DNA of 44,624 nt from a virus. The first letter of the stretch is position 1. Each line of letters starts with the position of its first letter. Made by a program: the position numbers and the translations under genes. The notes under the pieces are model-generated. The model was not told where the DNA came from. It did not search any database and saw only the letters and a list, made by a program, of their open reading frames with translations. The stretch is taken from positions 1 to 44,624 of the IMG/VR virus record IMGVR_UViG_3300046167_000470; one strand, 5' to 3'. Of this stretch, positions 32,254 to 43,000 are shown one piece after another.

Positions 32254-32990
32254 AAGAATTAGAAGAGGAACAAAAAGCAGCTCGTACAGAGTCAGCTTAT
32301 CAATTCGAAACATTATTATCTGAGTTCGGCGTTACATCTGTAAAAGATTTAAACGAAGAAGACAGAAACAAATTTTTTGCTAAGCTAGGTGCTTCTGAAG
32401 TATCTGAGTCTTTAGCTATCATTGAAGAAGGTACCAGATCACAAGTTGGTATTATTTCTAAAAGAGGAAAAATAGAGTCAGTGTATATGCACTACGATGG
32501 TTATCCAGACCACATGTTACCTACAATTAAGAAGGGTTACATGAACTCCGGAACAGTTAAGTTTTTACTTAAGAAAGGGGGTGGCTCAGGTTTGGAAGCA
32601 GATCCAAGTAAGATTAATTTCTACGGAGATAAAACAACTCTAAAAGGTGACGCTAAGAAAATCGACGATTATATTTCTGATGCTAGCGATAGAGCAGGAG
32701 CAGAATTCGTTTACCTATTTGATGAAAGAGATGGCAAATGGTATATGGCAGATGTATATGGAGATAAAGAATTAATTCCAGCATTTGAGTCACTAATTAT
32801 TAATGAAGCATTTAAACCAAGTAAAGGTAATGCAAGAGACGCTAAGAAAGTTTCGAAGTTTTTGAACACATTCTTCATGAAGCATTCTGCAATTGCAAAC
32901 TCTGATAGCTTTTTAGGTGCTTGTAGATACTTATTAGCTGAAGCCCTAACAGACGCTAACTTCCACTCATATAGAGATCCAGGTAAGTAA
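32250..32990 (+). CDS. Repeat-containing head-type protein, N-terminal half (fragment)
   Basis: Open for 247 codons without an initial start; the first in-frame ATG is 32481. It contains a helical acidic region (LKELEEEQKAARTESAYQFE), then an alpha/beta domain around the ATG at 32481 (SVYMHYDGYPDHMLPTIKKG, then VKFLLKKGGGSGLEAD). A processing-like motif E-S-L-I-I-N-E/A-F-K (E at about 32804) is followed by a helical domain. The frame ends at 32990 because of an extra C at 32979-32980; removing it gives Y-R-D-Q-V-S-K-A-L-G-G and continues into the next fragment. No enzyme family recognised. Confidence 0.55.
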   Translation, partial: LKELEEEQKAARTESAYQFETLLSEFGVTSVKDLNEEDRNKFFAKLGASEVSESLAIIEEGTRSQVGIISKRGKIESVYMHYDGYPDHMLPTIKKGYMNSGTVKFLLKKGGGSGLEADPSKINFYGDKTTLKGDAKKIDDYISDASDRAGAEFVYLFDERDGKWYMADVYGDKELIPAFESLIINEAFKPSKGNARDAKKVSKFLNTFFMKHSAIANSDSFLGACRYLLAEALTDANFHSYRDPGK

Positions 32991-33018
32991 AGCACTTGGT
33001 GGTAAGATTATTACTATC

Positions 33019-33840
33019 ATGGTAGACATCGATAATTTAGGTGGCATGGCAATTCCTGTTGGTAAGAAAACAATTATTAACCTATTAGACGAACATTACT
33101 CTGGTCTAGCTAATGCAGCTGGATGGTCAGGTATCGGTATCGTTGAAGGTATGGCATTATTCTTAGATGGATTTGGTTACTCTCAACCAGCACAAAAAAT
33201 AGTAGATGCATTTGAATTAATCTGGGCTAACGAGTCTGTGATGAATGAAGGTAATGCGTTCTTAGCTGCAAGAGCTAAAGCTATTGAAGAAGATGCTGAA
33301 GACTTTGAGTTTAACGGTAAGAAATTTCCAGTAATTAAAGAATCAAACGAAGAAGTTGAAGAAGGAAATGCATTTGGAGCTGCAAGAGCAGAGGCAATTG
33401 CAAAAGGCGAAAAGACTTTTAAAGTTGGCGATGAAGAATATGATGTAGAATCAGTTGACGCTGATGATAAAGAAAACGCAGAAGAATTTGTTGAAGAAAC
33501 TGAAGAGGTTGAAGAAGGAAACGCATTCGGAGCTGCAAGAGCTGAAGCGATTGCAAAAGGCGAAAAGACTTTTAAAGTTGGCGATGAAGAATTTGACGTA
33601 GAAGCAGTTGATGCTGATGACAAGGAGAACGCAGAAGAATTTGTTGAAGAAGAAACAACTAACGAAGCAGAAGTAAAGTCTGATGAAGATTTTAAAGAGT
33701 ATGCATTCTCAGTTTTACAACAAGCATTCGGTGACGAATTCGATGAAGAAAAAGCTCAAGAAGTTGTAGACGGTTTATTAACTAAACACGACGGTGACTA
33801 TGGTGCAGCAGTTGGTGCATTACAATCATCGTTAGGATAA
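33019..33840 (+). CDS. Repeat-containing head-type protein, C-terminal half with GNAF repeats
   Basis: Frame open from about 32986 (QVSKALGGKIITIMVDIDN), so the ATG at 33019 is probably internal to the 549-residue gene. After an N-terminal domain, it has E-S-V-M-N-E/G followed by three copies of a G-N-A-F-x-A-A-R-A-x-A-I unit. The last two are 51-residue tandem repeats, each preceded by V-E-E/G. The unit resembles a short A-F-x-x-A-R-x-x-G-x-x-x-F-x-W/V-x-G-x-x-Y motif that I recall from many phage proteins. The end is acidic and helical, with a UBA-like look (EEKAQEVVDGLLTKHDGDYG). Likely a packaged internal protein cut into small pieces; inferred. Confidence 0.6.
   Translation: MVDIDNLGGMAIPVGKKTIINLLDEHYSGLANAAGWSGIGIVEGMALFLDGFGYSQPAQKIVDAFELIWANESVMNEGNAFLAARAKAIEEDAEDFEFNGKKFPVIKESNEEVEEGNAFGAARAEAIAKGEKTFKVGDEEYDVESVDADDKENAEEFVEETEEVEEGNAFGAARAEAIAKGEKTFKVGDEEFDVEAVDADDKENAEEFVEEETTNEAEVKSDEDFKEYAFSVLQQAFGDEFDEEKAQEVVDGLLTKHDGDYGAAVGALQSSLG
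33352..33657 (+). repeat. Two tandem 153-bp in-frame repeats (51 residues each)
   Basis: Copies at 33352-33504 and 33505-33657 encode near-identical units, E-V-E-E-G-N-A-F-G-A-A-R-A-E-A-I followed by KGEKTFKVGDEE[YF]DVE and an acidic end. Most differences are synonymous, implying selection on protein after duplication. A shorter, diverged copy precedes them (33241-33351). Confidence 0.88.
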
Positions 33841-33859: not shown

Positions 33860-34708
33860 ATGAAGAAACTATATACATTTAAAGAATTCTTAAGCGAGAA
33901 AGTCCAGGTCAATAACTTGGACAATTTCGTATTTGAAGGTGGGGCCGCTGGCCACATGAAACACCCATTCGATGACAACTCATTAACCTTTGCTGATTTT
34001 AAAACTATTGTAAGATCTGCGCTACAGGGTGGTTTAGATTTTGAACAGCAACCTGCTGAAAAGACAGATGGTCAGAATCTATTTGCATCTGTAAGGGATG
34101 GTAAAGCTATCTTCTCAAGAAACAAGGGACAACTTATTGCACCCCTAGATCTAAACGGGCTCATTAAAATGTTTGCAGACCACCAAGTACCTCTAGTTAG
34201 AGAGACCTATGTTACTGCAGCTAAAGATTTAGCAAAGGCACTTCCGAAAGTCAAAGACCAATCAGTATTTGATGGTGGCAAGAACTTTATCAACATGGAG
34301 GTTATCAATATTAAGAACCCTAATGTAATAAACTACGATAAAGGTAATCTGTTACAATTCCATAATCTAACTTATACAGATGGTAATGGTAATATAATAG
34401 GAGACGATCAGTCTGTAGGTACAGAAATATTTAAAGCTATCGAGAAGGTAAAGGCTAACGTACAAAAGAACTATACTATAATTCCCCCTCAGATTTTAAA
34501 ACTAGCTAAAGATATAAACTTCGATGAGAGAGTCGGCTATTACGAAAAGAAGATAAATAAACTAAGAGATACTTATAGTTTATCAGACCAAGATGAAGTT
34601 AAAATGTATCATGAGGCTTGGTGGAGAAACCAAATCGAAGAGAACTTTCGCAGACTTAGATCCAGCAATAAAAGAGGGACTCTTATTAAGATGGGCATAT
34701 TTAGATAA
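33860..34708 (+). CDS. Ligase-like nucleotidyltransferase with capsid-targeting-type N-terminus (main part, frameshifted)
   Basis: The N-terminus MKKLYTFKEFLSEKV fits the targeting-like motif shared by neighbours. It is followed by a conserved block F-E-G-G-A-A-G-H-M-x-H-P-F-D-D (residues 25-39) and a covalent nucleotidyltransferase motif I, E-K68-T-D-G71-Q-N, with F-S-R-N-K-G following at about 85-90. Lys68 would be the residue adenylated in ligase-type enzymes. An extra C at 34649 (TTTCG) breaks the frame, so the last ~20 codons are wrong. Repair of this and a second extra C at 34824 gives a 425-residue protein ending at 35139 with a motif IV/V-like E-G-I-V-F-R-Y-K-G. Substrate (DNA, RNA or protein) is unknown. 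Confidence 0.65.
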   Translation: MKKLYTFKEFLSEKVQVNNLDNFVFEGGAAGHMKHPFDDNSLTFADFKTIVRSALQGGLDFEQQPAEKTDGQNLFASVRDGKAIFSRNKGQLIAPLDLNGLIKMFADHQVPLVRETYVTAAKDLAKALPKVKDQSVFDGGKNFINMEVINIKNPNVINYDKGNLLQFHNLTYTDGNGNIIGDDQSVGTEIFKAIEKVKANVQKNYTIIPPQILKLAKDINFDERVGYYEKKINKLRDTYSLSDQDEVKMYHEAWWRNQIEENFRRLRSSNKRGTLIKMGIFR

Positions 34709-34874
34709 ACAAACTCTAAATATGAGAGACTTAAAGAAAGCAGTTACTCCAGAACAGGCAAAAGCTGTTAAGGATTTTGATGGTCAAAGAAACATAAAGT
34801 ATAAAGAAAACATTCTACCCTTTCGAGAACTTATTTTTAGAATTAGGTTCAGATGTTTTAAAGAATGCTTCTAA
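34593..34874 (+). CDS. Ligase-like nucleotidyltransferase, middle fragment
   Basis: Real sequence in this frame begins near 34650 (FADLDPAIKEGLLLRWAYLD) and runs to about 34823 (KYKENILPF). The ATG at 34593 lies in the out-of-frame overlap and is not a true start. It is helical and links the catalytic core to the C-terminal part. It ends where a second extra C in TTTCGAG (34824) shifts the frame. Not an independent gene. Confidence 0.45.
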   Translation: MKLKCIMRLGGETKSKRTFADLDPAIKEGLLLRWAYLDKQTLNMRDLKKAVTPEQAKAVKDFDGQRNIKYKENILPFRELIFRIRFRCFKECF

Positions 34875-35139
34875 TTTTGTCGCGGCTAGTCCAGATGAAG
34901 AGAAGGCTAGATTACAGAATCAAATTAGAACAGAGGCCGGAAAGATTAAAAAGAACGGCGACTTAAAACAAATAGAGAAAGTAGAAAAAGAATTAAAGAG
35001 ACTAGAAGGTATTGGTGGTGTCGAATCAATCATGCCAACAGAAGGAATAGTCTTTAGGTATAAAGGTAAAACATTCAAGTTAACTGGTACTTTTGCCGCT
35101 ATTAACCAGCTAATGGGTATTATTAAATACGGTAGATAA
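34825..35139 (+). pseudogene. Ligase-like nucleotidyltransferase, C-terminal fragment
   Basis: 105 codons open to TAA at 35137-35139 with no start codon of their own, directly continuing the previous fragment (ENLFLELGSDVLKNASNF). A charged coiled segment is followed by S-I-M-P-T-E-G-I-V-F-R-Y-K-G-K-T-F-K-L, matching nucleotidyltransferase motifs IV and V (E-G-x-V and K-x-K). This supports a complete ligase-type catalytic core across the three pieces. Confidence 0.6.
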
Positions 35140-35147
35140 AAACTATT

Positions 35148-35471
35148 ATGGCATTACAGAATTTAAAAACATATTTCGAAGGAGCTAATACAGTAGACGT
35201 TGACTCATTGTTAAATAATAAATGTATTATTGTAGAGAAAATAGATGCATCATCATTTCATGTAAAGAGAGATGGTTCAAATTTTTTATACTATAAGTCA
35301 GGGTCTAAGCAAGAGATGAATCTTGTAGATCGTACTATTGTAAGATATTACGAAAACGCTATTAGACATTTTAAATCTGTTTCTGAAGAAAATGTAAAAG
35401 ATATGCCATTTGATTGGAAATTTGGTTTTGATTATTTAGTGGATAATAAAACTATTGTATGTAGAATATGA
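35148..35471 (+). CDS. RNA-ligase-like domain, N-terminal part of a two-domain nucleotidyltransferase
   Basis: 107 codons. The N-terminus (MALQNLKTYFEGA) is a weaker match to the targeting-like motif. Motif I is clear: V-E-K31-I-D-A-S-S-F-H-V-K-R-D-G-S, with Lys31 the predicted nucleotide-accepting residue. A helix and F-D-W-K-F-G-F-D-Y follow, as expected before motif IIIa. The frame then breaks into a stretch with several indels (35460-35900) beyond which the same protein seems to continue into the NMN-adenylyltransferase-like part ending at 37012. Ligase superfamily membership is from motifs only; an RNA ligase or a protein AMPylase-like enzyme are both possible. Confidence 0.6.
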   Translation: MALQNLKTYFEGANTVDVDSLLNNKCIIVEKIDASSFHVKRDGSNFLYYKSGSKQEMNLVDRTIVRYYENAIRHFKSVSEENVKDMPFDWKFGFDYLVDNKTIVCRI

Positions 35472-35902
35472 CCTATTAACCAAAATCAAATTTATCCTAA
35501 CACGATATACAAGTAATGCAACCTTCTATCCTACTAAGATTAGAAAGGTAATCAGAGATACCTAAAGTCTTAGAAAAATGGGCGAATAATTAGGTGTTGC
35601 TGCGCCTCCAGTTTTTATTTGAAGGTCTTTTAGATTCAGGACAGAAAGATAGTCTAAAAAGATTATTATCCATGTCAATTAATGAGTTTGAACAAACATT
35701 TGAAGATAAAGATAAACCATCGTTTACTAGAGTAGTATATGGCATCTTTAATGAAAAATAAGAAGCAATCAGCTCTTATGAATGATTTATCTAAAGATGT
35801 CGCTGGATTTGTTTATTAATTTTCATGATGGAAAGGAATTAAAACCTTTTAAATTAGAAAAGTTTAATCAAACCACCTAAAGAAGATAGAAAGCCTTCTG
35901 AC
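35472..35902 (+). pseudogene. Indel-dense linker region of the two-domain nucleotidyltransferase
   Basis: No long frame is open, but short stretches in all three + frames read as one protein: EYDLLTKN, FILTRYTSNATFYPTKIRK, VLEKWANN, LGVAAPP, LFEGLLDSGQKDSLKRLLSM, INEFEQTFEDKDKPSFTRVV, NDLSKDVAGF, then INFHDGKELKPFKLEKFNQ. The last looks like ligase motifs IV and V. At least five one-base errors in ~400 bases would be needed to restore it. This is the densest indel cluster in the window; no other gene is seen here. Confidence 0.5.
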
Positions 35903-37012
35903 ATGTATCAAATAACAATATTAGATCTTGTTGAACATTTAATTAACTATGATTTTAGTGAAGTTCAATTAGAATCAGAGACTACAGATAGAAGATATTT
36001 AGAATTATTATCGACGGTCTTTAATAATTATATTGAAAAGAATGCTACAAAATATATTGGAGCTAAATTTGATTCAGCAGATTTTTCTGAGTCTCCAATG
36101 TTTGAACTAAACCATAAATTTATTCAAAACGAAAAGACTTTAACTTTAGTACAAGATAAGATTTTATCTGAACTATTTAAAATTACACTAGGTTCTTTTA
36201 GAAAGAAAAGAACAAAAGAGACTGATATTATTAATAAAGATTTAATGAATCAAATGAATCAAATTATTGAAAAGATTGATTCTTTAGTAATGGCTAAAAC
36301 AAATGAAGCAGACGTTATGAACTTTAAACAATATTTATTAAATCAAAATATTTCTAGCCAAGTTAGTCCAATTACTGAGGGTCTAACTGTAAAATATAAA
36401 GATCAAGGTAAGAAATTAGTTAATATGTTTGTTGGTAGATTTCAGCCATTTACATTAGGACATGCAAAGGTTATTGAAACTATCCATAAACAAAACGGTT
36501 ATCCAGTAGTTATCTTCTTAATTAAGTCTAAGACTAAGAAGGCAGAAGATGCATTTAAGAGACCTTACGATGAAGAGACACAATTAGCAATGTTAGAGAG
36601 ATTAAAGTCTTCATATCCAATTGAAGATGTAAAGATCTTACCAACTGCAGCTATTGATAAAATGTTTAATGAACTAAGACCTCAATATGAACCAGTACTT
36701 TGGGGAACTGGAACTGATAGAATGAAGGTATATGGTTATCAAGTAGATAAACAAGAATACAGAGATGATCTAGACGTTAGAGATGATTTTGGTCTATTTG
36801 AAATTCCAAGATCAGGTAAAAACATTTCAGCGACTCAAGTTAGAAATGCAATGTTAGATGATAACGAAAAACTATTTAAAAAATTAACTCCTAAAGGTGT
36901 CCACGGCATGTATGGAGAACTAAAAATGAAATTAGAAGACTCGATGGGTGTTGCTGCAGAATCTGCACAACCAGAATTCCTAACCTTCGATGATTTTTTA
37001 AAGAATATATAA
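35903..37012 (+). CDS. NMN adenylyltransferase-like nucleotidyltransferase domain protein
   Basis: 369 codons. The first ~165 residues are helical and end in a processing-like I-T-E/G. Then comes a HIGH-superfamily nucleotidyltransferase: G-R-F-Q-P-F at about 178-183, T-L-G-H at 184-187 (the T/H-x-G-H ATP-binding motif), and I-S-A-T-Q-V-R at about 307 (the I-S-x-T-x-x-R motif). G-R-F-Q-P-F with this ending is typical of NMN adenylyltransferases (NadM/NadR type), which make NAD+ from NMN and ATP. The C-terminus (FLTFDDFLKNI) mirrors the N-terminal targeting motif. The ATG at 35903 may be internal; the true start is probably 35148. Confidence 0.75.
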   Translation: MYQITILDLVEHLINYDFSEVQLESETTDRRYLELLSTVFNNYIEKNATKYIGAKFDSADFSESPMFELNHKFIQNEKTLTLVQDKILSELFKITLGSFRKKRTKETDIINKDLMNQMNQIIEKIDSLVMAKTNEADVMNFKQYLLNQNISSQVSPITEGLTVKYKDQGKKLVNMFVGRFQPFTLGHAKVIETIHKQNGYPVVIFLIKSKTKKAEDAFKRPYDEETQLAMLERLKSSYPIEDVKILPTAAIDKMFNELRPQYEPVLWGTGTDRMKVYGYQVDKQEYRDDLDVRDDFGLFEIPRSGKNISATQVRNAMLDDNEKLFKKLTPKGVHGMYGELKMKLEDSMGVAAESAQPEFLTFDDFLKNI

Positions 37013-37031: not shown

Positions 37032-37442
37032 ATGAAAAATATAAAAACATTTGAAGGCTTTAGAGAAGAAGGCTATAAGCCAACAAACGAGTCTATTCAA
37101 TTCGGTTCTTATTACTATAATAGTAGAACAGCATTTGGTGAGTTTAGCGATAACCTACCAGAAAAAGGCGATACAAAGTATTTAGTATTTGCTCATAATG
37201 AAGTAGACTTCTATGGTCAGAGAATTAGATTAGAAGCAGGTCATACTTTGGGCGGTCCAAATGGAAAGCAACATATTGGTATTTTTGACGATGAGGCTAG
37301 TGCCGCAGAAGCATATAAGACTGCTATGAAAAAACCAGATGGCGTTTTACTTTCATTCTCAATGGGAACTCTTTACGCAAAATCTAAGTTCTCTTTTCAA
37401 TATGAAGAAACACAGGGTAAACTAGCAAAAATTAAAGCATAA
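37032..37442 (+). CDS. Small protein with capsid-targeting-type N-terminus
   Basis: 136 residues. It begins MKNIKTFEGFREEG, matching the F-x-x-F-x-x-E pattern of neighbouring genes. The rest is a compact alpha/beta domain (TKYLVFAHNEVDFYGQRIRL; IGIFDDEASAAEAYKTAMKK; LSFSMGTLYAKSKFSFQYEE). I do not recognise the family. A 19-base leader separates it from the NMN-adenylyltransferase-like gene, and the next gene starts two bases after its stop. Context suggests a packaged internal head protein. Confidence 0.6.
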   Translation: MKNIKTFEGFREEGYKPTNESIQFGSYYYNSRTAFGEFSDNLPEKGDTKYLVFAHNEVDFYGQRIRLEAGHTLGGPNGKQHIGIFDDEASAAEAYKTAMKKPDGVLLSFSMGTLYAKSKFSFQYEETQGKLAKIKA

Positions 37443-37444
37443 TC

Positions 37445-39823
37445 ATGATAAACTTCGAAGACTTTTTATCGGAAGGCAAGAAATTGCAAATCAAAAGAAA
37501 ATATACAGAGAACCACCCTGCTCAAACTGTAGGTAAAACTGCTAATGTAAGAAATGCAGTCCTACAAGCTATTAAAGACGGTGTAGTGACAAGAGAAGAG
37601 TTTAACAAGATTCTTTCCGAATTATCTACTAGTTCAAGCCAATGGGCTTCTAGAAATAGAAAGTACTTTAATGTTTCTGAAGAGGGTGTAAAGCTTTCAA
37701 AATGGGGTCGTAGAATTCTAGCTGAACTAGATGAAACTCCTAAAGCTGCTGAAGTATTTGAGGCTACGGTAGAAATGGACGCTTTAGATCCAGATAATAA
37801 AGATTTCTTAAAATTCTTAAAGAAGAATAGAGTTAAGATTATCAATAAAGTAATGGACGGTCCAGGTGGTGGTACTCCAGTTATCACAATGCAGGGTAAG
37901 AGAAAAGATCTTGAAAAAGTATTAGCAGATCCAGAACTTGGATGGGACGATCCAGAACTTGGAGAGTATATCGAAGAGTCAGTAGTTAATGAGAAGATCA
38001 AAGTTACAAAATCTGATTGGCCTAATGCTGTTGTTAAATATAAAGGTAAGAAATACGAAATAGAATTTGACGACTATGATGTGATTGATGACCACGGTAA
38101 TGAGGGTAAAGATCTTTATTTCATGGGAGTAGATCAAGAAGGTGGTAATTGGGAAGTTGACGTATATGCTGATTATAGAGATGAGGTAGAAGATATTCAT
38201 TGGGACACTTTAATTTACAAAGGTATTGATGAATCAGTAGTTAATGAAGCTAAATTCGTAAAAGATTTTGATAAAGCAGTTTTAGATGCTGAAACAGAAA
38301 AAGATGTTTTAAAAGTATATCCTAAAGCTGAATTTTATGTAGGTAAAATGTCACATTTCTTTGGAGAACTAGAACCAAACTTATTCTTTAAAGCTTATTA
38401 TGCTAAATACTACAAACAAGACACTGGTAAATCAATTAAAGGTGATTTTAAAATTACTACGGTTTACTCAGAAAAAGGTAGCAGATATGTAAATCTACAT
38501 GTTGAAGAATCTGCAATCACTGAAAACTATGAAGTTATTTATAGTGACGGTGTAAGTGCTATGAAAAAGTTTAGAAACGAGAAACAAGCACTAGACTTCA
38601 TGAAGAAAACTATCGCTTCTAATAAAAAACTAAGAGATATTGCAGTCTACAAACCAGGCATGCATTCAACTACTCAAACTGAATTAGTTGTTAAATTCTG
38701 GGGAGACGGCTCTTACCTAGATAACGTATCCAAAAGAGATAAAAATTTAGCTGCTAAAAAACTAGAAGAAAATACAAATATGAAAAGTGAAATAAATTTA
38801 TTCGAATCATTTAGTGACTTCGTTGGAGCTAACTTTCTTAACGAAGCAATTAAATCAGCTATATTAAGAACAGTTCTATCAAACGGTAGAGAGGGTAAAG
38901 AAGCTAAGAAAAATCTTTCTAATTTAGCTAAAGGTTTTTACAACCTATCTAAAGTAGCTCTTGATAAAATCGAAGATGAAGATTTTATTATTAGCAACGA
39001 TGTATCAAAGATATTTAAAAACTACGGCGGTTCAAGCCACGTACTTTTCTTTATCTCAGATAACGAGAAAGAAAATCCATACTATGACCATAACAACGGA
39101 TCATGGAATGACTATAAAATGGTTCCAGGTGGAGGTATTGTATTAGCAGCTATGTCTGGTGACAGACAATTCTATGCTAATGAGTGGTCAAGATGGGCAG
39201 GTGCTAGATCCTGGTCTAAACAGAAAAAAGGTGATGTAGACCAAATCGGTATTAACCACAAATATAGAGGTTGGGGCGCATCGGGTCTTAACAACGGTAA
39301 GAGAATTGCAGAGATGTCTGATAGAGTTATTGTTATCAACCTAGAACTAATTAGACAAAAGTATTCTACTCAACAGTTAAGAGATGCAAGAAAAGCAGCT
39401 AAAGCAGATGCAACAGCATTCAAATCTGATAAAGACTTTAGAGATGCTAACAGAAATAGATACCACAAGATCTTAGCTGATAAAGCGGCAAGTTTACCAC
39501 TAGATAAAATGGTATCAGATGCAATAGACAAGCTGGCTAAACAAATCTCAGACGGTTTAAAGAAAGGTGAGAAGACTAGATACCAAGAAATTAAAATTGG
39601 TGAATCTCCAAAAGGTAAAGAAGTAAAAGCAAAAGATGCATCTCAACACATGTCAAATATCTTAGATGACTATTCTAGGTATGTAGATTACATTAGACAG
39701 GCAGAAGAATCTGAGGCTAGATATGGTGAAAAAGAATCTTACTACGAAAGAGAATCTAAGAACTATGCAAAGCAAATTAAAGAAAGAATAAACAAGATTG
39801 ATAGTTTCGACTACGCTTGGTAA
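37445..39823 (+). CDS. Multidomain head-type polyprotein with repeated E-S-x-x-x-E motifs
   Basis: 792 residues starting MINFEDFLSEGKK, a good targeting-like segment. It is divided by motifs resembling prohead-protease sites: E-S-V-V-N-E183/K, E-S-V-V-N-E268/A, E-S-A-I-T-E360/N and F-L-N-E467/A. The pieces between them (about 85-107 residues) look like separate small alpha/beta domains; residues 120-175 include DGPGGGTPVITMQGKRKDLE. A second targeting-like segment lies internally (Met446: LFESFSDFVGANFLNE), followed by a 325-residue charged domain with WARWAGARSW-like tryptophans (actual SRWAGARSWSKQKKGD). This suggests two joined internal proteins. No enzyme motif recognised. Cleavage is predicted, not shown. 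Confidence 0.65.
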   Translation: MINFEDFLSEGKKLQIKRKYTENHPAQTVGKTANVRNAVLQAIKDGVVTREEFNKILSELSTSSSQWASRNRKYFNVSEEGVKLSKWGRRILAELDETPKAAEVFEATVEMDALDPDNKDFLKFLKKNRVKIINKVMDGPGGGTPVITMQGKRKDLEKVLADPELGWDDPELGEYIEESVVNEKIKVTKSDWPNAVVKYKGKKYEIEFDDYDVIDDHGNEGKDLYFMGVDQEGGNWEVDVYADYRDEVEDIHWDTLIYKGIDESVVNEAKFVKDFDKAVLDAETEKDVLKVYPKAEFYVGKMSHFFGELEPNLFFKAYYAKYYKQDTGKSIKGDFKITTVYSEKGSRYVNLHVEESAITENYEVIYSDGVSAMKKFRNEKQALDFMKKTIASNKKLRDIAVYKPGMHSTTQTELVVKFWGDGSYLDNVSKRDKNLAAKKLEENTNMKSEINLFESFSDFVGANFLNEAIKSAILRTVLSNGREGKEAKKNLSNLAKGFYNLSKVALDKIEDEDFIISNDVSKIFKNYGGSSHVLFFISDNEKENPYYDHNNGSWNDYKMVPGGGIVLAAMSGDRQFYANEWSRWAGARSWSKQKKGDVDQIGINHKYRGWGASGLNNGKRIAEMSDRVIVINLELIRQKYSTQQLRDARKAAKADATAFKSDKDFRDANRNRYHKILADKAASLPLDKMVSDAIDKLAKQISDGLKKGEKTRYQEIKIGESPKGKEVKAKDASQHMSNILDDYSRYVDYIRQAEESEARYGEKESYYERESKNYAKQIKERINKIDSFDYAW

Positions 39824-39835
39824 TATAATAGAGAT

Positions 39836-40375
39836 ATGAAAACAATCCCAACATTCGAACAATTTTTAAACGAAAAGTCATATAGAATGACAGGTATCTA
39901 CTCGGCCAAAGGTCTTGTAGGTAAAGTAATGCAAGCGTTTAGACAAGAGATTAAAACGATAAAGTACGAAGGTATTAATATAGTAACTCAAGAAGAAGTT
40001 AATAAAGAATGGGCAAAGTTTGAAGACAAAGCTAAAAAGATTATTTTAGATCAAGTAGAAAAAGGAGCAGGCGGCATGGATGGTATCTTATTTGTTACTG
40101 CTAATCTTTTTAATGGATTCGCCATAGATGAGGTTAATGGTTTAAATCGTGAAGATTCAGATACATTATATCTTTCATACGAGGTAGTAATTAATGTAGG
40201 CTTTATGGATGATGTTAACGGTAAAAAATTCGCTAGAAAAATCGATAAGACCGGAATGATGAATTCCCCGTTATCATACGAAAAGGAAGTTATTTACGGT
40301 AAATATGACGAGTCGGTTGGTAACAACAATCTAGAAATTAGAGATAGCGAATATATCCAAATAGACGGAAAATAA
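39836..40375 (+). CDS. Head-type protein with capsid-targeting-type N-terminus
   Basis: 179 residues beginning MKTIPTFEQFLNEKSYRMTG, one of the clearest matches to the shared F-x-x-F-L-x-E motif. The remainder is an alpha/beta domain (VMQAFRQEIKTIKYEGINIV; KAKKIILDQVEKGAGGMDGI; LYLSYEVVINVGFMDD). Family not recognised. It lies 12 bases after the polyprotein gene and one base before the next ATG. The role as a packaged internal protein is inferred from the N-terminus and neighbours. Confidence 0.6.
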   Translation: MKTIPTFEQFLNEKSYRMTGIYSAKGLVGKVMQAFRQEIKTIKYEGINIVTQEEVNKEWAKFEDKAKKIILDQVEKGAGGMDGILFVTANLFNGFAIDEVNGLNREDSDTLYLSYEVVINVGFMDDVNGKKFARKIDKTGMMNSPLSYEKEVIYGKYDESVGNNNLEIRDSEYIQIDGK

Positions 40376-42168: not shown

Positions 42169-42330
42169 ATGAACAAGAAAAAGAAACATGATGACAAATT
42201 AGACTTCAACGGAGGATGGTCTCCGGGTGAGGCTGCGCATCATATTTCTAAGAAGATGACACAACAAACAGTATCAGATAAAACTAAGTACTCAAGAAAG
42301 AAGAAACATAAAAATAAAGACGATGAGTAA
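42169..42330 (+). CDS. Small lysine-rich protein
   Basis: 53 residues, very basic at both ends (MNKKKKHDDKLDFNGGWSPG at the start, KYSRKKKHKNKDDE at the end), with SPGEAAHHISKKMTQQTV between. It begins directly downstream of the terminator and promoter-like sequence, and its stop overlaps the phosphatase start by 8 bases, so coupling is likely. It may bind nucleic acid because of its charge; nothing more can be said. Confidence 0.55.
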   Translation: MNKKKKHDDKLDFNGGWSPGEAAHHISKKMTQQTVSDKTKYSRKKKHKNKDDE

Positions 42331-43000
42331 AATAGTAGTAATAGGAGACATTCACGGACACGTGAGTTGGAAGAAGATTATCGAGCTGAATCCTGATGCT
42401 ACTGAGTTTGTATTCATTGGAGACTACTTTGATTCATTCTCAATTTCACATGTAGAACAAATCTATAATTACAAAGAGATTATTGCATGGAAGGAATCTA
42501 CTGATGTTAAGGTAACTATGCTGATCGGTAATCATGACTTTCACTATATGTCAGATTGTGGTGGAAGATATGGTGGATATAATGTATGGCACGCACCGGA
42601 AATTGGTGAACTCTTAAAAGAAACTAAAGAACATTTACAAGTAGCATATCAGGTAGATAAGTTTTTATTTACGCATGCCGGCGTTTCGAAAGAATGGTAT
42701 GAGGCCAATTTCCCAGAAGGTGGTAATATCCCAGAACAAATTAATGATCTATGGTCTTATGATAAGAGATCGTTTAATCATAGTGGTATGGAAATGTATG
42801 GTAATTATGATGGTGAAGGTCCAATGTGGATTAGACCTCAAGCCCTAAGACGTAATCCTCTTAACGATACTATTATACAAGTCGTTGGGCATACTAATAT
42901 GAAAGTGATCGACTATGATGATAATCACTATTTTGTTGACTCACTCCCGCATGAGTATCTTTGTATTGAAAATGGAGTCCCAGTTATCTACGAACTTTAG
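42323..43000 (+). CDS. Calcineurin-like metallophosphoesterase
   Basis: 225 residues with all main motifs of the family: G-D9-I-H11-G-H, G-D34-Y-F-D, G-N70-H71-D72, then F-T-H-A-G and V-V-G-H-T, which bind two metal ions. The layout resembles PPP-type serine/threonine or dinucleotide phosphatases (T4-like and lambda phages carry similar enzymes). The substrate cannot be told. It overlaps the small lysine-rich gene by 8 bases; 53 bases separate it from the next gene. Confidence 0.88.
   Translation: MSKIVVIGDIHGHVSWKKIIELNPDATEFVFIGDYFDSFSISHVEQIYNYKEIIAWKESTDVKVTMLIGNHDFHYMSDCGGRYGGYNVWHAPEIGELLKETKEHLQVAYQVDKFLFTHAGVSKEWYEANFPEGGNIPEQINDLWSYDKRSFNHSGMEMYGNYDGEGPMWIRPQALRRNPLNDTIIQVVGHTNMKVIDYDDNHYFVDSLPHEYLCIENGVPVIYEL

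Follow-up and report, generated by a model that had tools for sequence, protein, structure and literature searches.

A ligase-like and NadM-like fusion gene in the capsid-targeting cluster of T4-like marine phages, and the plausible packaging of its product

The stretch of DNA analyzed here (the window) is a 44.6-kb IMG/VR fragment. It carries genes for a gp32-type SSB, a primase, a UvsW-type helicase, a baseplate wedge and a tail tube, indicating a T4-like myovirus. No tRNA or Rfam matches were found in the window. We focused on a gene of 619 codons, read in one frame in its intact copies, that joins a ligase-like half to a NadM-like half (Table 1). The gene belongs to a T4-like marine phage family, and the family is common, since a single pattern set matched 284 stretches in IMG/VR. 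Bacterial and archaeal genomes searched with this query yielded no relative. Elsewhere in the window, a NinI-like/metallophosphoesterase gene was observed at 42323-43000 (PHROG 246, E 5.5e-8).

In the window, the gene is split into two frames, 35148-35471 (107 aa) and 35903-37012 (369 aa). Two other fragments, L005 and L006, match the window at 99.6% identity, and in both (L005:7251-9110) the gene runs as one open 619-aa frame between the same two ends. Aligned to L005, positions 35250-36000 of the window contain 8 extra and 3 missing bases (about 11 indels) and only one substitution. So many indels with a single substitution indicate that the break arose in assembly or sequencing and is not a sign of decay. 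The gene was full length in 86 of 87 relatives examined, the last being cut by a contig end, and 63 distinct full-length proteins from these relatives were aligned. An earlier note, made from the window alone, had proposed that the two frames form one gene; the uninterrupted copies and the full-length relatives bear this out, and the motifs EKIDASSF, GRFQPFTLGH and ISATQVR lie where that note had placed them. The architecture, a ligase-like and NadM-like fusion in one gene, is thus nearly certain. Further indel patches at 31.5-32.9 kb and 34.5-34.9 kb break the UvsW-like helicase gene and its neighbors, which are intact in L005.

Table 1. Features of the fusion gene and its neighbors, in window coordinates.
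Feature	Position	Strand	Evidence or remark
Upstream partner, N-terminus MKKLYTFKEFLSEK	33860..35139	+	indel-broken in window; L005:5965-7242, 425 aa
Whole gene: Rnl2-like domain, helical domain, linker, NadM-like nucleotidylyltransferase	35148..37012	+	L005, L006, 63 distinct relatives
Ligase motif I-like EKIDASSF	35235..35258	+	Lys31 invariant, D33 and A34 variable; 63-sequence alignment
Indel-dense stretch	35250..35999	+	frame broken in this assembly only; alignment vs L005
Motif III-like DWKFGF(D/E)Y	35412..35435	+	assigned by sequence pattern
Motif IV/V-like region, degenerate	35796..35868	+	frame disturbed in window; alignment
Helical domain, counterpart of Rnl2 C-terminal domain	35890..36292	+	AlphaFold2 model; Foldseek 2hvr over full-length Rnl2
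CTS-like element MNFKQYLLNQ in disordered linker (residues 389-398)	36317..36346	+	top-scoring PSSM window
NadM/cytidyltransferase-like domain	36416..36943	+	PF01467 E 4e-10; PHROG 3041/395/3462; Foldseek NadM 2qjo
GRFQPFTLGH ([H/T]xGH motif)	36434..36463	+	invariant 63/63
ISATQVR (ISSTxIR-type motif)	36824..36844	+	S559, A560, T561, V563, R564 63/63
C-terminal CTS-like tail LTFDDFLKNI (residues 610-619)	36980..37009	+	F..F pattern in about 58/63
Neighbor, CTS-like N-terminus MKNIKTFEGF	37032..37442	+	
Neighbor, CTS-like N-terminus MINFEDFLSEG	37445..39823	+	
Neighbor, CTS-like N-terminus MKTIPTFEQFLNEK	39836..40375	+	

An AlphaFold2 model built from 17 family sequences reached a pLDDT of 77.5, with residues 382-413 (pLDDT below 50) and 600-610 disordered. 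Searching the PDB with Foldseek, we found full-length T4 RNA ligase 2 as the top match (2hvr, E 2.5e-7, probability 1.0), and the C-terminal part matched NadM (2qjo, E 9.8e-5, probability 1.0) and PPAT (1.0e-4). The TM-score of the 2hvr match was low (0.38); with such scores the placement of the domains is uncertain and the assignment of the folds is reasonable. A BFVD match spans the full length of the protein (E 2.7e-45). By computation, the protein thus combines an Rnl2-type fold, including the helical C-terminal domain, with a NadM-type nucleotidylyltransferase, and a disordered linker joins the two. Both folds expected for the joined protein were thus recovered, while the alignment revealed an eroded ligase active site. 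Mean identity among the 63 distinct sequences is 79% in the nucleotidylyltransferase half versus 60% in the ligase half.

In the ligase half, the motif I lysine (K31) is present in 63/63 sequences, with mostly Q at position 33 and mostly A at position 34. The motif IV glutamate (position 218) is replaced by D, A or S across the 63 distinct sequences, and the K-x-K of motif V has become K-x-E, the second lysine (position 236) being mostly E. Since motifs IV and V are eroded, the ligase half is probably not a working ligase, as judged from the alignment. The PF09414 RNA_ligase family matched weakly and under the gathering score (4 of 20 members, best E 0.0057), and hhalign of this half against single sequences of T4 Rnl2, CP220, X1, Ps15 and the upstream gene gave no significant alignment, so that the ligase homology rests on Foldseek and the weak PF09414 matches. 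Of the ligase-type domain proposed before, the Rnl2 fold, the motif I lysine and the location of motifs IV and V held up, but these two motifs proved degenerate. A ligase that depends on NAD and is resupplied in cis by the NMNAT half was also considered; we rejected this as the main explanation in view of the eroded motifs IV and V and of the fold match, which points to the ATP-type Rnl2. Ligase-only relatives were observed in the huge phages LR756504 (L002) and LR756501 (L003); they are likely pseudo-ligases, since their motif I lysine is replaced (ENIQG, EDIQG).

The C-terminal half scored 40.4 bits against PF01467 (gathering score 21 bits), which places it in the HIGH/CTP_transf_like superfamily. 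In GRFQPFTLGH, T replaces the first H of GRFQPxHxGH, as in [H/T]xGH enzymes. GTG[ST]DR is essentially invariant among the 63 distinct sequences, I558 of ISATxVR is kept in 62 of 63, and the wider phage nucleotidylyltransferase family has G(S/T/G)DR and S[AS][ST]xxR in common. The invariant NadM-like motifs, the eroded ligase motifs and the gap in conservation together point to an active C-terminal enzyme carrying a ligase-derived binding domain. We consider it likely that the C-terminal half is an active nucleotidylyltransferase. With somewhat less assurance, the ligase half appears to have lost ligase chemistry and to act in binding or regulation, with RNA, a nucleotide or its neighbor as possible partners. 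That both enzyme folds are kept for binding only, in a structural protein of the head or core, would agree with the eroded ligase site and the location of the gene but is highly improbable, given the strict conservation (63/63) of the nucleotidylyltransferase motif residues.

The best sequence matches among solved structures were NadM-type proteins. However, the NCBIfam NadM equivalog cut-offs were missed widely (28.6 vs 409 bits; 25.8 vs 181 bits), and the arginine of the NadM motif NPFxxxER, aligned to the Arg of MJ0541, is Gln477 in 63/63 sequences; other phage relatives have Gln, Lys or Arg at this position. NMN is therefore the foremost candidate substrate, and we judge its conversion to NAD+ an evenly balanced question. 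The earlier description as NMN-adenylyltransferase-like thus holds for fold and motifs, while Gln477 and the equivalog scores weaken the case for NMN specificity. PF04095 (NadV/Namat type) was found in 2 of 10 long relatives, all of them possibly fragments; phage NadM is reportedly always accompanied by NadV (PMC9503650). A NadM/Nudix arrangement was ruled out, a Nudix partner being present in 1 of 10 long relatives.

The gene lies in a cluster of genes with N-termini resembling the capsid-targeting sequence (CTS). In a 212-kb relative, 8 of 219 ORFs have an N-terminus with the pattern [FY]..[FY][LIVM].E, which is matched by 0.4% of internal windows. The gene directly upstream (-1) has a CTS-like N-terminus in 54 of 56 relatives, and downstream genes have one in 15/52 (+1), 22/47 (+2) and 16/42 (+3); the count for gene -3 is 0/55. 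The targeting-motif cluster that had been suspected is thus real. With a 10-residue PSSM, built from the CTS-like N-termini of other genes in uncultured marine phages, T4 IPII and IPIII scored higher than every one of 50,600 background windows, and IPI ranked at 8e-4. This ranking identifies the cluster motif as the T4 CTS. A gp21-type prohead protease (PF03420) was present in 10 of 10 long relatives. A second set of five CTS-like N-termini was observed in the 212-kb relative, away from the cluster (G001:41838-61117; L134, L135).

The upstream partner of 425 aa directly precedes the fusion gene in 79 of 80 loci, usually with a gap of 3-17 nt. It has well-kept nucleotidyltransferase-type or ligase-like motifs (KTDGQN, RNK, ME, TEGIVF, FKLTG) and matched no Pfam family; the fold search with its model (pLDDT 63) gave a best E of about 1, with RNA ligases recurring below significance. 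An acidic repeat protein was also observed (window 32487-33840; L005:4296-5945), with two direct repeats of ~154 bp at 33345-33651 and orthologues of about 207 to 902 aa that share a C-terminus like DYGAAVGALQSSLG.

The N-terminus of the fusion protein itself, MALQNLKTYFEG, has no CTS score with the PSSM. The linker element has a percentile of 1.4e-4, and 2e-5 in L011/L012. Taken alone this hit is modest, since 1.4e-4 over about 600 windows gives about 0.1 expected by chance. The aromatic residues are kept in every sequence (F/Y391 63/63, Y/F394 63/63) within an otherwise poorly conserved linker, and the strength of the element therefore lies in its conservation across relatives. On alignment with IPIII, F391, Y394 and L395 fall at positions 4, 7 and 8, and position 10, a Glu in IPIII, is occupied mostly by Asn, so the processing glutamate is mostly absent. 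The C-terminal tail, likewise mostly lacking this glutamate, has a PSSM percentile of 1e-3, and 2e-5 in L032. To our knowledge, no internal or C-terminal CTS has been demonstrated in T4. Targeting by the CTS depends mainly on positions 4 and 7, and processing on positions 8 and 10 (PMC9026906); T4 Alt has a processed C-terminal propeptide (PMC5694885). The PHROG 3041 alignment begins at residue 392 of the fusion protein, which would fit descent from a CTS-tagged nucleotidylyltransferase to whose front the ligase half was added. Packaging of the protein in the head is plausible.

Tagged relatives are found in cyanophages. The cytidyltransferases of P-SSM2, S-RIM2, S-H34 and ACG-2014f have an N-terminal CTS, the cyanophage N-termini being MKSFSQFLTET, MKKFSAFLTEA, MKGFSNFLIEA and RSFLTFLTEA; the nucleotidylyltransferase relatives of P-HM2, S-CAM4, 121Q and HTVC008M have none. 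Mass spectrometry of S-CREM2 virions detected the cytidylyltransferase ORF154, and its authors noted that cytidylyltransferase is frequently detected in cyanophage virions and that co-purification may explain this instead of true packaging (PMC10665884). A packaged NMNAT-like enzyme is thus not a new idea. Cyanophage cytidyltransferases (PHROG 395/3041) share the homologous domain with GR[FL][QN]PxxxGH, GxDR and S[AS][ST]xxR; unlike the fusion protein, several of them carry a T4-type CTS at the N-terminus, and the sequences read contain no ligase-like domain. A literature search, with subscription papers outside its coverage, found no published ligase-NMNAT fusion, and none of the annotated relatives examined is described as one. 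What is new here, within the literature searched, is the fusion to a ligase-like half and the presence of CTS-like elements inside the protein.

The fusion protein could instead be an ordinary enzyme of NAD salvage or nucleotide metabolism, made in the infected cell and left unpackaged, with its place in the cluster reflecting shared late expression. This explanation is consistent with the absence of an N-terminal CTS, with the stand-alone phage NMNAT-like genes without a CTS, and with the well-documented phage NAD salvage by NadM, NadR and NadV (PMC9503650). However, every relative examined has the gene within the CTS cluster, and the CTS-like elements are kept in an otherwise poorly conserved linker and tail. 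The tagging of cyanophage relatives, one of them detected in virions, lends packaging indirect support, and the usual absence of PF04095 from the matches also speaks against an unpackaged salvage enzyme. An unpackaged enzyme is credible but unlikely.

Several other phages bring similar domains together. In LR756500, a ligase-like part and a nucleotidylyltransferase are also fused (37.6% identity over the C-terminal 369 aa). Campylobacter phage CP220 gp26 (PHROG 27149; PF09414 0.029, PF01467 1.9e-4), annotated as hypothetical and located a few genes from the portal gene, likewise has a ligase-like half (EKYDG, PEGYV) followed by a nucleotidylyltransferase half; its nucleotidylyltransferase signature is degenerate (GKFRILTKAH) and its ligase motifs are better kept, unlike in our family. 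In Xanthomonas X1 and Stenotrophomonas Ps15, a ligase-like gene, assigned by motifs and with no Pfam hit, lies next to an NMNAT-like gene. In these two phages we observed a four-gene run (L128:128-3477 and L131:393-3510) of Pol-beta-like (by eye), unknown, ligase-like and NMNAT-like genes, the first with MGGNxV...GDIDI/GDVDI and the ligase-like one with KxDG and EGVxI.

This recurrent fusion or adjacency supports a functional link and keeps alive a role in RNA repair or end modification, in which the ligase fold would hold RNA and the other half would use the end of an RNA, or some other phosphorylated substrate, rather than free NMN. The two parts look like a working pair, the gene immediately upstream also carries ligase-like motifs, and the GxDR pattern and the R-to-Q change distinguish the family from cellular NadM. 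Against this role, motifs IV and V are eroded in the fusion family, the X1 and Ps15 ligase assignments are by motif, and NadM is the best sequence match of known structure. We regard it as quite unlikely.

Compared with known systems, the fusion protein shares the fold of both Rnl2 domains and the motif I lysine with T4 RNA ligase 2 (gp24.1), whose gene rnlB likewise lies near head genes and uvsW. T4 Rnl2 has EKIHG, EGYV and KCK and stands unfused, whereas the fusion protein has lost the motif IV Glu and the second motif V Lys and continues into a nucleotidylyltransferase. With phage and bacterial NadM (bifunctional NMNAT/Nudix; 2qjo, Cronobacter phage Dev_CS701), it shares the fold, GRFQPF and the ISSTxIR-type motif; unlike them, it has no Nudix domain and has Gln for the NPFxxxER Arg, and a PF04095 gene is usually not found. 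Like NARP1 and NARP2, it would produce NAD+, provided that its substrate is NMN, but a NadV/Namat-type partner is mostly not found here and packaging is proposed. Like T4 Alt and IPI-IPIII, it is a candidate head-packaged and ejected protein using the CTS; it differs from them in being another enzyme and in carrying CTS-like elements away from the N-terminus.

Taken together, our preferred explanation is that this gene of the CTS cluster encodes a packaged and injected NadM-type enzyme with a non-ligating ligase half; as a whole, we give this explanation an even chance. The protein would enter the prohead by its own linker and C-tail elements or with its CTS-tagged operon partner, the elements would stay largely uncleaved, and the protein would leave the head with the DNA, a route that we find reasonably probable. 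Once in the cell, the protein would make NAD(H) or a related dinucleotide available as infection begins, ahead of phage gene expression. Such an early supply could blunt NAD-depleting defenses, an anti-defense role that we suggest tentatively. More doubtful is the fullest version, in which the CTS moved from the N-terminus to the linker and C-tail with the targeting residues kept and the processing glutamate mostly lost, and the whole two-domain enzyme is packaged and injected, with the dead ligase half used for binding while the NMNAT half restores NAD+ before phage gene expression.

Rebuilding of NAD+ by phages is known as a response after infection starts. If our explanation is true, an injected enzyme that makes NAD+ would be at work from time zero, like Alt in T4. 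Since the CTS PSSM ranks T4 IPII and IPIII above all background, it also offers a simple way of listing candidate injected proteins in uncultured T4-like phages.
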